A stretch of DNA of 25,281 nt, taken from positions 1 to 25,281 of the forward strand of contig JAOZRC010000003.1 in the NCBI GenBank assembly GCA_029940345.1, given 5' to 3'. Source of the stretch: Desulfobacterales bacterium (GTDB taxonomy: Bacteria > Desulfobacterota > Desulfobacteria > Desulfobacterales > JAUCGF01). Position numbers and translations under genes: made by a program. Of this stretch, positions 3,719 through 14,643 are shown in pieces. The notes beneath the pieces are model-generated. The model was not told where the DNA came from. It was given only the letters and a program-made list of their open reading frames with translations, and searched no databases. Position 1 is the first letter of the stretch, and every line of letters begins with the position of its first letter.

Positions 3719-4498
3719 TTAGCTATTCTGCTGGATGAGGTTGTTTTCAGACCATGCCACCACATCCTTGTACGGCACCCTCCCCCCAAAAATATCCAAA
3801 GCGCTGCCGATGGTCAGGTCAACACGCCCTTTCCCAAGGGTGTTCACTCGGTCGAAATCAGCCAGTTCTTTGACACCGCCCGCATAAGTGACGGGAATCG
3901 GAGAGTATTCACCCAAAAGCGTTACAAGCGCCGATTCAATACCGGCGCATTGCCCTTCAACATCCACCCCGTGAACCAGAAATTCATCACAATGATCGCT
4001 CAGTTTGGCAAGGGTTTCCTGATTCACCCGTACATCTGTGTATTTTTGCCAGCGGTCAGTGACAACCTGATAATCATGGCGACTTTTGCGGCAACTTAAA
4101 TCAAGCACCAGCCTCTGCTTGCCAACCGCCTTCTCCAACGCCCGGAGTCGCGCCATGTCGATGCGGCCATTTTTAAATACATAGGAAGTGACAATAATAT
4201 GACTGGCTCCGGCATCCAGATATAAAGCGGCATTTACAGGTGTGACACCGCCGCCGATATGCAAACCGCCGGGATAAGCACGCAGTGCATTTAAGGCAGC
4301 TTGAGTGTTTCCCGGTCCGAGAGATATCACATGACCGCCCGACAAATTATCGGCCCGGTACATACAGGCATATTCGGCCGACGACCGGTCCGCTTGAAAA
4401 TTAATGATAGTTTTTTCGTTTTTATTATCTGTTAAAGAACTGCCGACGATCTGAACAACGCGTCCGTTATGTAAGTCAATACAGGGTCGAAATCGCAT
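3719..4498 (-). CDS. hisA: Eukaryotic-type HisA (ProFAR isomerase)
   Basis: The 259-aa product should be the TIM-barrel enzyme of histidine synthesis that converts ProFAR (5'-phosphoribosylformimino-AICAR ribotide) to PRFAR, in the cytosol. It resembles the yeast HIS6/plant type rather than ordinary bacterial HisA. Visible hallmarks are [18 protein letters not shown] at the N-terminus, IGGGV near 77, VLDLSCRK near 131-138, [15 protein letters not shown] near 173-187, YAGGV near 205 and [14 protein letters not shown] near 226-239. The Asp in CIDLHNG and the Asp in HGVDVEG occupy the expected positions of the two catalytic acids. The start is supported by AAAGGTGA upstream of ATG. It lies 76 nt beyond the selenocysteine-form stop of arsS, probably in the same transcript. 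No other his gene is visible. A role outside histidine synthesis is possible but unsupported. Confidence 0.85.
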
Positions 4499-4561
4499 TT
4501 TTTAATCACCTTTCCATGCTTTCTTAGCTGACTGCGATGCATTGTCTATCGCTGCCAGGAG

Positions 4562-4598
4562 AGCGTACCTGAACTCAGGTCTTAATTGCACCGCTTCA
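4562..4598 (-). promoter_or_regulatory. Candidate bacterial SECIS element just after the ArsS UGA
   Basis: Reading the minus strand, the UGA at 4598-4596 is followed by AGCG (4595-4592), 11 unpaired bases, then ACCUG (4580-4576), loop AGUU (4575-4572), CAGGU (4571-4567), one base, and CGCU (4565-4562), which can pair with the AGCG. The G of the loop GU is about 21 nt after the UGA, close to the spacing in E. coli fdhF, and the loop has G within its first two bases, as the bacterial SECIS consensus expects. The stem is perfect but only 5 bp, plus a 4-bp lower clamp. No structure prediction was run. Confidence 0.6.
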
Positions 4599-5585
4599 GG
4601 TAAAACCGGCACCGGCGGTGCAAGTATAGCAATGATCCGCCGTAACGATCGCTATCCCTTCTTGCGGTGGCCCGGCCATTTGGGAAATATGGGCAGGCCG
4701 TCCGCCCATGTCCAGTCCCCGGGCAAGATTAAAATCACAATCGTAAAGAAATCCGTCCCAGGAAACGGACATAAGGGTGCGGCACATCACGCTTTCTACG
4801 GCGCAAGGATTAAATGCATCCGCCAACTTTTTAAGGTAGGCGTCATAGTTGCCGGATTTGATCAGCCATTTATGAAATCTTCCCAAAGGGACATTGGCAA
4901 AACTGAAAAACTGATTGAAAACAATACCCCATTTTTTCTTCAAAACCTGGCGAAATCTTTTTTCCGTCTGGGATTGGGAAGCAGGAAGGAACGCACCGGT
5001 GGGATTGGAGACCAGATTGAGTTCCAGTCCTGTTCCGCTTTGCCCGTATCCCAGGGCGTTTAATTTCCGGAGGGCGTCGACAGAAGCGCCAAAGATGCCT
5101 TCACCCCGCTGGGAAGCGGTTTGTGCCTCATTTAAAGATGGAAAAGATGCAACGATAACAGCTTTCACGGATTTCAACAAATCCATGAGAAAGTCTCTTG
5201 TGCCGTCATTTAAGGCGGATAAGTTGGATCGAAACATTATCCGGGGCGCTTTATGGGAGATTCCCTTGATCAAATCTGTGATATGGGGATTCAGCTCAGG
5301 AGCGCCACCGGTAATGTCAATGGTGTCAAACCGGCTCCTTTCAGCATACGAAATCACCTGGTTTACGATTTCTTTCCCCATATTCTCCGTGCGGCCCGGC
5401 CCGGCGTTGAGATGGCAGTGCTTGCAAATCTGATTGCAGCGCAATCCCACATTTACCTGGAGTGTGTGGGTGCGATTCCTGACTAATTTCATATCATGCC
5501 GCAACAGCGCCGCTTGAAACGGCTCTGTCCGCCCGGATTTTTTGTCGTCCGGTTCTGCTTTTTTATCGAGTGATCGGGTACACAT
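4575..5585 (-). CDS. arsS: Arsenosugar biosynthesis radical SAM selenoprotein ArsS (UGA at 4596-4598 read as Sec)
   Basis: This radical SAM enzyme carries CNQICKHC (Cys 50, 54 and 57) for the 4Fe-4S cluster, a GGAPE motif near 93-97 for SAM binding and a Cys-rich C-terminal half (Cys 261, 268, 283, 319 and 322). ArsS is thought to use its adenosyl radical to join dimethylarsenic to 5'-deoxyadenosine in arsenosugar synthesis. Ordinary translation stops at UGA 4596 right after CYTCTAGAGFT. Family members continue with a Cys and a few small residues at this place, and some carry selenocysteine. Reading through gives Sec-330 then SGAIKT and a second UGA, 336 aa in all. The start is supported by CGGAG 6 bases before ATG, 23 bp after the peroxidase-like gene. 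If the UGA is not recoded, the protein is 329 aa ending at 4596 and lacks the final redox residue. Confidence 0.85.
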
Positions 5586-5608: not shown

Positions 5609-5941
5609 TTACATGGACAGCTTTTCATTGACATTGCGCATTTGAATTCCGTGAACCAGGGAGGCACCGCCTCGTATGGCCGTTGCCACATGAATCGCCT
5701 CCGTCATTTCGCCCGGATCAGAGCCTTTCTCAAGACACGTCTGGGTGTAGGCGTCGATACAATAAGGACATTGGATGGCATGTGCTACAGCCAGGGCAAT
5801 AAGCGCTTTTTCTCTTTCTGTGAGTTCGCCTTCGGCAAATACCGCAGCATAATAATCAAAAAATTTACGGGCCAATTCCGGTGCTTCTTTTCCAATTTCT
5901 TCAAATTTATTCAGGTCTTGCGGTTTGTAATAGGTTTCCAT
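5609..5941 (-). CDS. Arsenosugar-associated peroxidase-like protein (AhpD/carboxymuconolactone decarboxylase fold)
   Basis: The 110-aa single-domain protein has the AhpD signature: CPYCIDAYTQTCLEKG near residues 58-73, with a CxxC redox pair followed by a conserved region containing His (EAIHVATAIRGGASLVHG). AhpD-type proteins reduce peroxides or disulfides through CxxC. A subfamily of this size is commonly encoded directly upstream of arsS, and some members carry selenocysteine in the CxxC. Here both positions are Cys. The start is supported by AAAGGAG 7 bases before ATG. The 23-bp gap to arsS argues for one transcript and a functional pair, perhaps supplying thiol reduction for the ArsS reaction. 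The exact substrate is unknown. Confidence 0.85.
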   Translation of the reverse strand: METYYKPQDLNKFEEIGKEAPELARKFFDYYAAVFAEGELTEREKALIALAVAHAIQCPYCIDAYTQTCLEKGSDPGEMTEAIHVATAIRGGASLVHGIQMRNVNEKLSM

Positions 5942-6109: not shown

Positions 6110-8251
6110 TCATCCTCGCATCCAGACATGAAACCGTTCCATCCACTGAAGCGCTTTCTCCGGTGCATGGGTCTTTTTCCATTCACCCGCCACCGCTTTG
6201 TTGGCCTCTGCCAGGGTCGGATAGATATGAATCGTGCCTAAAATTTTATTCAGGCCGATGCCTTGTTTCATTGCCAGGATATATTCGGCGATAATATCAC
6301 TGGCGTGGGCACCGACAATGGTGACCCCAATGATTTTATCGCTCTTGGGTTTGGTTAAAATCTTTACAACACCATGGTCTTCCGAATCGCAAATGGCGCG
6401 ATCCAGATCTTCGATGTCAAAGCGGGTCACTTCATACGCAATGCCTTTTTCCTTGGCCTCCAGCTCATTTAAGCCGACTCGGGCAACTTCCGGATCCGTA
6501 TAGGTCGCCCAGGGAATAACGCGGTAATCGGCGCGGAAGGTTTTAAATTTACCGAATAATGCGTTGACGGATGCGTACCACGCCTGGTGAGAAGCGGTGT
6601 GGGTGAATTGATAGGGTCCGGCTACATCTCCGGCACAGAAAATATTGGGGAAATTAGTTTGCAGAATTTCATTCGTTTCGATTGTGCCGTTCTTATTTAA
6701 GCGCACGCCCAACTTTTCAAGACCAAATCCCTTGGCGTTGGCCGCCCGACCCACCGCAACCAGGATTTCATCAAACTCAAAGCGAATTTCCATACCATTG
6801 TGATCACAAACCAAAATTTTACGGCCATCTTCTGTAACCACCGCTTTGGCGCGATGGCCAGTAAGTACCTGGATGCCTTCCTGCTCAAACTTGTCCTTCA
6901 CCATTTGAGAAATTTCCACATCTTCGCGGCCCATGATTCGCGGCGCCATTTCGACTTGCATCACTTCGGAACCAAGCCGCGCAAAGGTCTGGGTCATTTC
7001 GCAGCCGATGGGGCCTCCCCCCAATACCATCAGGCGTTTGGGTAGTTTTTCAATATTCCAGATATTATCGGATGTAAGGTAGTCGATTTTATCCAAGCCG
7101 GGAATGGGTGGAATGAAAGGCCGGGCGCCAGTGGCAATAACAATGCTGCGTGTGGTGATAACGCGATCATTCACTGCGATCGTGTATGGCGAAATTATTT
7201 GCGCTTCTCCCCGGATGCAATCCACACCCAGTTGGGTGTAGCGCTCTATGGAATCGTGAGGCTCAACTTTTTTAATGATCTCACGAACTCTTGCCATCAC
7301 ATCCGCAAAGTCAAACTGAATGTCGCCTTTTGAAAAACCGAATTCGGAAGCTCTTTTCGCATAAGTTAAAATTTTAGCCGACCGAATTAATGCTTTACTG
7401 GGAACGCACCCGGTGTTTAAGCAATCGCCGCCCATTTTGTGTTTTTCGATGAGAGCCACCTTTGCGCGAACCGTGGCGGCAATATACGATGTGACCAGCC
7501 CGGCAGAACCTGCGCCGATAACCACCAGATTATAATCTGATTTTGCAGGCCGGGGATATTTGGCCATCACCTTGCGGGCCTTAACAAAGGTAATCAGTTT
7601 TTTAGCGACTATGGGAAAAATGCCCAACAGCGCGAATGAAAATAAAAGCCCCGGTGAAAGGATTCCTTTAAGCGAATCAATTTTGCCAAGCTGGGTGCCG
7701 GCGTTCACATAAACGAAGGTGCCTGCCAGCATACCAATCTGACTGACGATATAATAAACAGCCGTTCGTATGGGGGTAAGCCCCATTACCAGGTTGATGA
7801 TAAAAAATGGAAAAATCGGAATCAGTCGCAATGTAAAAAGGTAGAAAGCGCCCTCTTTTTCAACGCCCGCATTGATGGCCGTCAGTTTATCACCGAATTT
7901 TCTTTGTACAAAATCCCGCAGGAGAAATCGGGCAACCAGAAAGGCCAGGGTGGCGCCAATGGTGCTGGCAAAAGAGATAAGTAAAATTCCCAGCCAGAGG
8001 CCGAAAAGTGCGCCGCCGGCCAAGGTCATCACCGTGGCGCCTGGTAAAGAAAGGGCGGTTACAATAATATAGATGATCACATAAGCGGCGATGGTAAAAC
8101 CGGTGTGGTGCGCATAGTAATCCGCAAAGGCTTGCTGCTGCGCTTTTAAATAGCTGATGGTGAGATATTGCTGAAGATCAAAGGCAAAAAAAAGCAAGGC
8201 CAGAGTAGCGATAACAAGAATGATGATGATTTTCGGGAGATTCCCTTTCAT
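6110..8251 (-). CDS. VTT (TVP38/TMEM64/DedA-like) membrane domain fused to mercuric-reductase-like flavoprotein
   Basis: The 713-aa fusion has two halves. Residues 1-230 are hydrophobic with about six membrane segments and a VTT/SNARE-associated core (LSLPGATVMTLAGGALFG, RLIPIFPFFIINLVMG). Residues 238-713 are a class I pyridine nucleotide-disulfide oxidoreductase: FAD site GAGSAG (246-251), redox pair CLNTGC (277-282), NAD(P)H site GGGPIG (411-416), second FAD motif AGDVAGP near 540 and a dimer-domain HIYPT (675-679) holding the usual active-site His. MerA's N-terminal metal domain and C-terminal Cys pair are absent, so mercury reduction is unlikely; the substrate is unknown. The chosen ATG at 8251 has AGGAAAGGA upstream. 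A longer GTG start at 8296 lacks a ribosome site and lies within 11 bp of the -10 box. It is probably the first gene of the peroxidase-arsS operon and could reduce an arsenical, disulfide or quinone at the membrane. Confidence 0.9.
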   Translation of the reverse strand: MKGNLPKIIIILVIATLALLFFAFDLQQYLTISYLKAQQQAFADYYAHHTGFTIAAYVIIYIIVTALSLPGATVMTLAGGALFGLWLGILLISFASTIGATLAFLVARFLLRDFVQRKFGDKLTAINAGVEKEGAFYLFTLRLIPIFPFFIINLVMGLTPIRTAVYYIVSQIGMLAGTFVYVNAGTQLGKIDSLKGILSPGLLFSFALLGIFPIVAKKLITFVKARKVMAKYPRPAKSDYNLVVIGAGSAGLVTSYIAATVRAKVALIEKHKMGGDCLNTGCVPSKALIRSAKILTYAKRASEFGFSKGDIQFDFADVMARVREIIKKVEPHDSIERYTQLGVDCIRGEAQIISPYTIAVNDRVITTRSIVIATGARPFIPPIPGLDKIDYLTSDNIWNIEKLPKRLMVLGGGPIGCEMTQTFARLGSEVMQVEMAPRIMGREDVEISQMVKDKFEQEGIQVLTGHRAKAVVTEDGRKILVCDHNGMEIRFEFDEILVAVGRAANAKGFGLEKLGVRLNKNGTIETNEILQTNFPNIFCAGDVAGPYQFTHTASHQAWYASVNALFGKFKTFRADYRVIPWATYTDPEVARVGLNELEAKEKGIAYEVTRFDIEDLDRAICDSEDHGVVKILTKPKSDKIIGVTIVGAHASDIIAEYILAMKQGIGLNKILGTIHIYPTLAEANKAVAGEWKKTHAPEKALQWMERFHVWMRG

Positions 8252-8306
8252 GGTGTGATCCTTTCCTGATTCTAACTGAAAATCAATTGTGAACACCTAA
8301 TTATCC

Positions 8307-12150: not shown

Positions 12151-14643
12151 ATGGCTTCCACACCGCCGGAAAACCATGAACTGAAGCTAGCCCGGGATTT
12201 TGTTCAATACACGGGCAGTCATATTTTTTTAACCGGTAAAGCAGGCACCGGTAAAACCACCTTCCTGCATAACCTGAGAGGCAATATAGCCAAACGAATG
12301 ATCATCACGGCCCCTACCGGGGTTGCGGCCATTAATGCCGGCGGCGTCACCCTTCACTCTTTTTTTCAACTACCCTTTGGCCCCTTTGTTCCGGGCAGTC
12401 CAGCTTATGAACAGAACAGCCAACGTTATTTCAGATTCAGCAAGGAAAAAAAACGGATAATTAAGAGCCTCGATTTATTGGTGATAGATGAAATCAGCAT
12501 GGTGCGGGCCGATTTGCTCGATTCCGTGGATACGGTGCTACGGCGACACCGCCGCAACGAGCAGCCCTTTGGCGGCGTTCAACTGCTCATGATCGGTGAC
12601 CTGCACCAGCTTTCTCCGGTGGTAAAACAGGATGAATGGCCGCTTTTACGGCAACATTACGCATCGGCTTATTTTTTCTGCAGCCATGCCCTTGCCCGGG
12701 AAAAAATGATTACCATTGAATTAAAACATATTTACCGCCAGTCCGACACCCGCTTTATCAAATTGCTTAACCAGGTTCGCGACAACCGGCTTGACGCCGC
12801 AGCTATTCAGGAACTAAACCGGCGTTATATTGAAAATTATACGCCTGAAGAAAATCAGGGCTATATCACCCTGACCACCCACAACATGAGCGCTGACAGA
12901 ATTAACAAAACCAGGCTCGCAGCATTGGCGGGCAGAGAATACGCCTTTGAAGCGGAGATTTTCGGTGATTTCCCCAAATATACTTTTCCTACCCAGGAAA
13001 TCCTGGTGCTAAAGAAGGGGGCTCAAGTGATGTTTCTGCGCAATGATGCTTCCCCTGAAAAGCGCTATTACAATGGCAAAATCGGTAAAATCAAGACCCT
13101 TTCCAGCGAACGAATCCGTATCAACTGCCCAGACGAATCCGAGGAAATTGCGGTTGAACCCGTGGAATGGGAAAATATCAAATATACGGTGAACAAAGAA
13201 AGCAAGGAAATCCAGGAGGATGTCATCGGCAAATTCAAACAATTCCCCTTGAAACTGGCCTGGGCCATCACGATCCATAAAAGCCAGGGATTGACTTTTG
13301 AAAAGGCCGTCATTGATGCCAAGTCCGCGTTTGCCCATGGTCAGGTTTATGTGGCTTTAAGCCGATGTAAAACGTTTGAGGGCATGGTACTCAGTTCACC
13401 CATCCCCCCCCGGGGCATTGACACCGATCAGGCGGTTTTATCTTTTGATGAAACGGCCAGGCAAAAACCGCCCTCTGAAAACCAGCTTAGGACAGCTAAA
13501 ATACACTACCAGCAAGGGTTGCTGCTGGATTGCTTTGATTTTCAATTGATGCAAAAACGTTTCAACTACCTTGCATGGCTTTTGCGGAGTAATGCCCGAC
13601 TGGTTCAGGTATCCGGCGTGTCCGATATGGTTCGGTTGCAGGAAATGGCCAGGGAACACATTTTTACAGTCAGTGAAAAATTCAAACAACAATTACACAA
13701 CATTTTTGCAGAGCAAAACCTGCCGGAATCCGATGCCTATATCCTGGAACGGATTGGCAAGGCATCCGTATGGTTCCAGGATAAATTTTCATTGATTTTT
13801 GATGATCTTGTCCAAAAATTTCAGGTTGAGACGGACAACAAAGAACTTGGCAAGAAGATTGGCAACACCCTGGACAATCTCAAACAGGAGATTGTGGTAA
13901 AGCGCGTCGGCATCCAGGCTTGTGAAAACGGATTTTCACCGTCGCATTATTTGCGTTCCCTCTCAAAGTCCAAGATTGACTCAGCCCCTGGAAAAGAAAA
14001 AAAGCACCAAGCTCCGGATTACACTGAATCAGACATTGAACACCCGGAATTATTCGGCGACCTTAAAGAGTGGCGATCCCGCAAGGCTGCGGAACAAAGC
14101 GTCGCCCATTTTCAGATTCTCCACCAACGCGTATTGATCCAGATAGTGGTCAACTTACCCGACAATCCGACGGATTTGAAAAAAATTAAAGGCGTCGGCA
14201 AGAAAACAGTAGAAAAATATGGTGAAGAACTGTTGGCCCTGGTTGTGGCCTATCGTAAAAAACATAGGATAGACAAGGTGATGCTGCCGGCTATCAAAGA
14301 GGCACCGGAAAATAAATCATCCCCGCAAAAAGCGAAGCCTGTTTCGGACACCAAACAGATCAGTTTTGATATGTTCGATAAGGGATTGACCGTTGCCCGC
14401 ATCGCGGAAGAAAGGGGCCTGGCTGAATCCACCATCCAGGGGCATCTGGGTTTTTTTGTCGAAACCGGTAAATTGGATATCAACGCGCTGCTCTCACCTG
14501 AAAGACAAGGCATCATTGAAGCGGCGCTCGCTCAAGTGACCGATAATTCCTTAAAAACAGTAAAAACTGAGCTGGGAGATGATTTTTCCTATGGCGACAT
14601 CAAACTGATGTTAGCCCACCAGAAATGCCAGGCATCGAAATAA
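12151..14643 (+). CDS. Pif1-like DNA helicase with HRDC and C-terminal helix-turn-helix domains
   Basis: The 830-aa superfamily 1 helicase has Walker A GKAGTGKTT (29-37), Walker B VIDEIS (111-116), GDLHQLSP (149-156), motif IV-like HIYRQSD (193-199), ITIHKSQGLTFE (373-384) and VALSRCK (401-407), the Pif1/RecD2 pattern. Residues about 640-703 look like an HRDC domain (LKKIKGVGKKTVEKYGEE), and 738-826 like the helix-turn-helix domain found at the C-terminus of some RecQ proteins (GLTVARIAEERGLAESTIQGH). Pif1 relatives unwind forks, G-quadruplexes and R-loops. The start is supported by AGGAAGAG upstream of ATG. It ends 9 bp from the convergent nfo gene. No palindromic repeat lies next to it. It is a housekeeping-type repair helicase rather than an obvious defence protein. 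Confidence 0.9.
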   Translation: MASTPPENHELKLARDFVQYTGSHIFLTGKAGTGKTTFLHNLRGNIAKRMIITAPTGVAAINAGGVTLHSFFQLPFGPFVPGSPAYEQNSQRYFRFSKEKKRIIKSLDLLVIDEISMVRADLLDSVDTVLRRHRRNEQPFGGVQLLMIGDLHQLSPVVKQDEWPLLRQHYASAYFFCSHALAREKMITIELKHIYRQSDTRFIKLLNQVRDNRLDAAAIQELNRRYIENYTPEENQGYITLTTHNMSADRINKTRLAALAGREYAFEAEIFGDFPKYTFPTQEILVLKKGAQVMFLRNDASPEKRYYNGKIGKIKTLSSERIRINCPDESEEIAVEPVEWENIKYTVNKESKEIQEDVIGKFKQFPLKLAWAITIHKSQGLTFEKAVIDAKSAFAHGQVYVALSRCKTFEGMVLSSPIPPRGIDTDQAVLSFDETARQKPPSENQLRTAKIHYQQGLLLDCFDFQLMQKRFNYLAWLLRSNARLVQVSGVSDMVRLQEMAREHIFTVSEKFKQQLHNIFAEQNLPESDAYILERIGKASVWFQDKFSLIFDDLVQKFQVETDNKELGKKIGNTLDNLKQEIVVKRVGIQACENGFSPSHYLRSLSKSKIDSAPGKEKKHQAPDYTESDIEHPELFGDLKEWRSRKAAEQSVAHFQILHQRVLIQIVVNLPDNPTDLKKIKGVGKKTVEKYGEELLALVVAYRKKHRIDKVMLPAIKEAPENKSSPQKAKPVSDTKQISFDMFDKGLTVARIAEERGLAESTIQGHLGFFVETGKLDINALLSPERQGIIEAALAQVTDNSLKTVKTELGDDFSYGDIKLMLAHQKCQASK

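Follow-up and report, generated by a model that had tools for sequence, protein, structure and literature searches.

A predicted selenocysteine-containing ArsS in Desulfobacterales and a SECIS-like hairpin that encloses its stop codon

Based on our comparisons, we propose that the arsS-like gene of the window (the whole 25,281-nucleotide stretch of Desulfobacterales DNA analyzed here) very probably makes a selenocysteine (Sec)-containing ArsS, in which SelB would direct the insertion of Sec at codon 330 and translation would stop at codon 337. The Sec reading itself was put forward in an initial annotation made from the letters of the window; it remains a prediction, now supported by the codons found at the same column in relatives, by the Sec machinery of the host genome and by a conserved SECIS-like hairpin downstream of the UGA. 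The features concerned are collected in Table 1.

Table 1. Features at and around the arsS-like gene (positions in the window).
Feature	Position	Strand	Basis and remarks
arsS-like radical SAM (seleno)protein gene	4575..5585	-	TIGR04167, PF04055 and PF12345 matches; 336 aa + UGA stop if the internal UGA is Sec
Predicted Sec-UGA, codon 330	4596..4598	-	Frame translation; UGA/Cys at the column in relatives
Second UGA, read as stop, inside the SECIS-like hairpin	4575..4577	-	Frame translation; 11/76 UGA-type genes have TAG or TAA instead
Bacterial SECIS-like apical hairpin, ACCUG-AGUU-CAGGU	4567..4580	-	Fold and cross-species pairing tests
Arsenosugar-biosynthesis-associated peroxidase-like gene (AhpD/CMD family, CPYC motif, no Sec)	5609..5941	-	TIGR04169, 195 bits; upstream partner
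VTT domain fused to FAD/NAD(P) disulfide oxidoreductase	6110..8296	-	Profile matches; upstream, same strand as arsS

The minus-strand reading frame begins with the ATG at 5585 and runs for 329 residues to HCYTCTAGAGFT, followed by UGA (4598-4596), SGAIKT and a second UGA (4577-4575), and this translation confirms the placing of the two UGAs and the 6 residues between them in the initial annotation. When the first UGA is taken as a residue (U being scored as C), the protein reaches 374.4 bits against the NCBIfam model TIGR04167 (cut-off 300) over model positions 2-303 of 303; when the protein is cut at the UGA, it scores 365.0 bits and the match ends at position 297. Reading through the UGA thus completes the model to its last position with a gain of 9 bits, and the 336-residue product that had been described agrees with both the translation and this match to the model end. 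Besides PF04055 and PF12345, the protein has a Cys-rich C-terminal part, and among solved structures 5 match it weakly, over the radical SAM core, for example YydG. Cysteines were counted in 78 UGA-clade rows (the window among them, locus L087 left out) and 30 rows of Cys-type genes. In the CxxxCxxC radical SAM motif, Cys 50 and Cys 54 are present in 78/78 and 30/30 rows and Cys 57 in 78/78 and 29/30; Cys 268 and Cys 283 are invariant over both sets, while Cys 319 and Cys 322 each miss one row. On these profile and motif matches, the window gene is an ArsS, that is, a member of TIGR04167.

The column of the first UGA was compared in two samples. For the UGA clade, genome contigs were scanned and the best 80 of 299 relatives were taken; two of them (L084 and L085) end before the tail, leaving 78 that reach the column. 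The codon there is TGA in 75, TGT in 2 and TGC in 1, and with the window added there are 76 TGA genes. For the Cys-type genes, we took the 30 highest-scoring loci of a search in 395 genomes of the phylum (L105-L134), all without an internal stop; all 30 have Cys at the aligned column, although the contrast is sharpened by the two samples having come from different searches, and related genes are not independent. The tail reads GFTU in the UGA clade (GFSU in L048), whereas it is GSSC in 29 of the 30 Cys-type genes. ArsS was found in 121 of the 395 genomes, and in 38 of these 121 an internal TGA interrupts one or more copies, as counted from the search table irrespective of where in the copy the TGA lies. 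Among the 83 other ArsS genomes, Cys was seen in the 30 fetched loci, one genome (G289) has an internal TAG, and in two (G005 and G319) the matches end before the column. UGA thus takes the place of Cys, as the initial annotation had supposed. Homologues stopping at the same point, which it had named as the outcome that would speak against Sec, were not what we found, since 78 of the 80 relatives reach the column with UGA or Cys. Among the criteria for a bacterial selenoprotein, an in-frame UGA aligned with the Cys of homologues is therefore present.

Downstream of the UGA, a hairpin with a 5-bp stem and a 4-nt loop can be drawn: counting the U of UGA as 0, ACCUG at offsets 18-22 pairs with CAGGU at offsets 27-31 around the loop AGUU, with G at loop position 2 and 20 nt between UGA and loop. 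The bSECIS rules given in an excerpt of PMC13188914 are a loop of 3-9 nt, a stem of 4-16 bp, G in the first two loop positions, a spacing of 16-37 nt from UGA to loop and an energy of at most -7.5 kcal/mol. The window hairpin is alike in loop, stem, G and spacing, and it satisfies the energy rule when 48 nt (-8.5 kcal/mol) or 54 nt (-11.9) are folded; the first 42 nt give -7.4, just above the limit, and the hairpin alone (a 27-nt piece) gives -6.2. Taken singly, it is not beyond chance when compared with shuffles (z = -1.85 for 27 nt, -0.47 for 43 nt and 0.23 for 58 nt), and an Rfam search of positions 4300-4800 gave no match up to E = 5. The hairpin counts as evidence only through cross-species comparison.

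In that comparison, with the position kept fixed, the stem reaches 5 pairs or more in 63 of the 76 UGA genes (window included), in 7.5% of mononucleotide shuffles, and in 1 of the 30 Cys-type genes, which have the same invariant Cys positions. Shuffles of the Cys-type genes themselves give 7.0%, so that 1/30 is at chance level; the row of L130 is shifted by one codon in the hairpin and stop-codon counts. When loop length is left free, all five inner pairs are found in 64/76 UGA genes (12/76 lack them), against 13.8% of shuffles treated alike and 1/30 Cys-type genes. G occupies one of the first two loop positions in 75/76 UGA genes versus 15/30 Cys-type genes. The two arms of the same gene pair at a mean of 5.47 of 6 positions, compared with 4.35 when arms were dealt among genes (maximum 4.58 in 1000 deals) and 4.10 in shuffles treated alike; since the arms were picked per gene for best pairing, these tests favour own arms. 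Some stems have changed and yet remain paired, such as GGCCCC/GGGGTC (L086), GTCCCC/GGGGAC (L099) and CGTCTG/CAGACT (L079, 5/6 pairs).

Other treatments of the same region gave mixed results. In the ungapped alignment, paired cells, both-side changes and covariation were above all 500 shuffles, while two of the five pair measures were not (195 and 87 of the 500 shuffles reach them), and sliding the alignment by one column gave more both-side changes (30 versus 25). RNAalifold predicted no structure on this alignment because the loop lengths differ, and the loop-length-aware count with its controls was used instead. A loose search, in which 5 pairs sufficed and the spacing could vary from 16 to 37 nt, was rejected: it found hairpins in 64/76 UGA genes and 12/30 Cys-type genes, and dinucleotide shuffles also passed it often (40% and 38%, respectively), therefore the fixed-position test was adopted. 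Despite the Rfam, single-fold, RNAalifold and ungapped-alignment results, a downstream bSECIS hairpin conserved in position and pairing, which is another of the selenoprotein criteria, is found.

A search of the genome for selA, selB, selC and selD had also been proposed, and all four are present in the host genome (6.05 Mb, 93% complete): selA at 595 bits, selB at 366 bits, selD at 376 bits, and selC as a tRNA-Sec with anticodon tca (UCA) at 73.9 bits. The selD gene (L010, G000:C204:280-1203) itself contains one in-frame UGA, in the motif GUASK, at what we take to be the known Sec/Cys site of SelD. In the phylum sample, 33 of the 38 internal-TGA ArsS genomes have selA (E up to 1e-60), which proves nothing because selA is so common in the phylum (355/395). 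The 5 internal-TGA genomes without a selA match, G078, G164, G200, G300 and G355, are 62, 73, 81, 90 and 82% complete.

If the first UGA were instead an ordinary stop, the protein would end at residue 329. This is how the database has it: the 120 listed best of 8000 scored proteins, the window's own included, all end just before the UGA, and even without read-through the TIGR04167 score stays well above its cut-off, at 365 bits. These entries, however, probably reflect gene callers that do not recode UGA, and they agree with the expectation of the initial annotation that a simple ORF caller would truncate the gene. Moreover, wherever the column is reached (78 of 80 relatives), the codon is UGA or Cys and never UAA or UAG, conservation runs past the UGA (offsets 6, 7 and 13 are invariant in 76/76 UGA genes), the hairpin falls to chance level in the Cys-type genes, and the host genome has the Sec machinery. 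We consider an ordinary stop at this codon very unlikely.

The second UGA lies at offsets 21-23, within the hairpin. The stop of the 76 UGA-type genes is TGA in 65, TAG in 9 and TAA in 2, and 69 of them end exactly six codons past the Sec-UGA. The proportion with a stop UGA is higher than in the Cys-type genes (16/30; Fisher p 0.0008, with kinship making the genes not independent), and the residues that would be translated next (VQV) are alike in many relatives. Both observations could be explained if both UGAs were read as Sec and the protein continued past 4575. But 11 of the 76 genes end on TAG or TAA. Further, the sequence likeness past the stop ceases at offset 30, close to where the 3' arm ends, with values of at most 0.46 beyond, and it is thus explained by RNA pairing. 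In addition, the second UGA is inside the hairpin rather than 16-37 nt before a loop. A double Sec reading is thus even less probable than an ordinary stop at the first UGA, and by comparison among the relatives, the second UGA is the stop of the predicted frame. That the hairpin overlaps this codon is absent from the initial annotation. According to an excerpt of PMC13188914, bSECIS elements typically lie within the coding region; the window hairpin differs in that it encloses the stop of the gene and its 3' arm is untranslated.

It is hardly credible that the UGA arose by point mutation or assembly error or that it marks a pseudogene, for although the window belongs to a 1024-contig draft assembly, UGA is found in 75 of the 78 relatives reaching the column, including the complete genome of Desulfosarcina alkanivorans PL12 (L054). 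Another complete genome, that of Desulfonema magnum (L087), has the UGA too, with an upstream frame open for 62 residues only; this copy may be frameshifted.

The Cys genes within the UGA clade bear on the history of the codon. A tree was built without the tail columns and with L087 left out for its short open frame (midpoint root; bootstrap not settled). One side of a fully supported branch holds 75 UGA rows (window included) and the three Cys rows, which are scattered within it; the tree needs four label changes, three of them forced by well-supported branches. None of the three Cys genes keeps the five inner pairs: the script finds a weak hairpin in L095 and none that qualifies in L052 or L083, and by eye L083 has a partial remnant of the CCTGAG...GG motif. 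These genes fit a replacement of Sec by Cys, a direction that we infer. Sec-to-Cys conversions, some with remnant SECIS-like structures, are described in an excerpt of PMC1794560. The ArsS locus thus offers a natural comparison, in which Cys codons accompany weakened or lost hairpins.

As for the neighboring genes, a relative of the TIGR04169-like gene is present in 74 of the best 80 of 299 ArsS loci and lies upstream of ArsS in 73. A match to the VTT-oxidoreductase fusion was found in 39 of the 80 loci (flanks up to 1.5 kb), upstream in 22 of the 39, with 36.7-38.7% identity in the ten rows printed. Its oxidoreductase part is nearest to lipoamide dehydrogenase and mercuric reductase models, below their cut-offs, and the fusion adjoins the ArsS pair. 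The gene after arsS (3719-4498, minus strand) is a HisA of eukaryote type (TIGR02129 hisA_euk, 356 bits, cut-off 229), and a tblastn search of the 80 ArsS loci and their flanks (up to 1.5 kb) gave no relative of it. Of additional note, an 830-residue protein encoded at 12151-14643 on the plus strand weakly matches RecD-type helicases over its first half and a RecQ C-terminal part farther along, in both cases below the cut-off.

With regard to arsenic, no gene of the host genome scored as ArsM above the cut-off. In the phylum sample, ArsM-like genes (E up to 1e-50) are present in 17/38 genomes with an internal-TGA ArsS, 39/83 with other ArsS and 106/274 without ArsS, showing no association (Fisher p 0.48 and 0.20 for the two ArsS groups versus those without ArsS, and 0.85 between the ArsS groups). 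Because of this lack of association, the label "arsenosugar biosynthesis" may be wrong for some members of the family. Arsenosugar synthesis, with formation of a C-As bond, by the UGA clade is putative, and gene co-occurrence lends it no support. Cheng and colleagues (2021) on ArsS are cited, in an excerpt of PMC12159101, with a sentence on arsenic adenosylation.

TIGR04167 is listed as a predicted selenoprotein, with AAR34688.1 as an example, in excerpts of PMC9312934 and PMC13188914, the latter giving the motif GxxU. Since the family is already listed, the window locus is a well-supported added member and not a new phenomenon. TIGR04167 ArsS is like the window gene in the match to the model end, the CxxxCxxC motif, the Cys-rich C-terminal part, the Cys/Sec tail and the TIGR04169 peroxidase-like gene directly upstream, and nothing fundamental is different. 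Our literature search found no paper joining ArsS, arsenosugar and selenoprotein.

We suggest the following scheme for the Sec-containing ArsS. Sequence comparison supplies four of its parts: the column shared by Sec and Cys, the hairpin, the machinery genes in the genome and termination at the second codon. SelB carrying Sec-tRNA-Sec would bind the hairpin, which starts 15 nt past UGA 330 (its loop 20 nt past), and Sec would be inserted at that UGA. Translation would then open the hairpin and stop at the second UGA, seven codons on, which is part of the hairpin and would be too near the loop for recoding. The product would have a tail CxxC...U where Cys-type ArsS has CxxC...C. As a Cys equivalent close to a conserved CxxC, the Sec would most likely serve as a soft-metalloid or redox ligand within the C-terminal part. 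More tentatively, a selenolate near Cys 268, 283, 319 and 322 might form a soft-metalloid (arsenic) or redox site or be a ligand of an auxiliary cluster.

Expression or modeling from the truncated database entries would leave out the residue at a column occupied by Cys or Sec in every examined relative that reaches it. The locus also presents a case of a stop codon sitting inside a SECIS hairpin; a literature search of titles and abstracts found no account of such an arrangement, which may still have been published. We lean toward the idea, with some reserve, that the ArsS genes of this clade combine recoding signal and terminator in a single element, a SECIS hairpin built around the gene's own stop. 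If this is true, two UGAs 21 nt apart, one before and one inside a single hairpin, would be read as Sec and as stop, and the pairing would keep the stop codon a UGA and set how long the tail is. Such a gene would then let one ask, in a small natural setting, how the placing of SelB determines whether a UGA is read as Sec or as stop.
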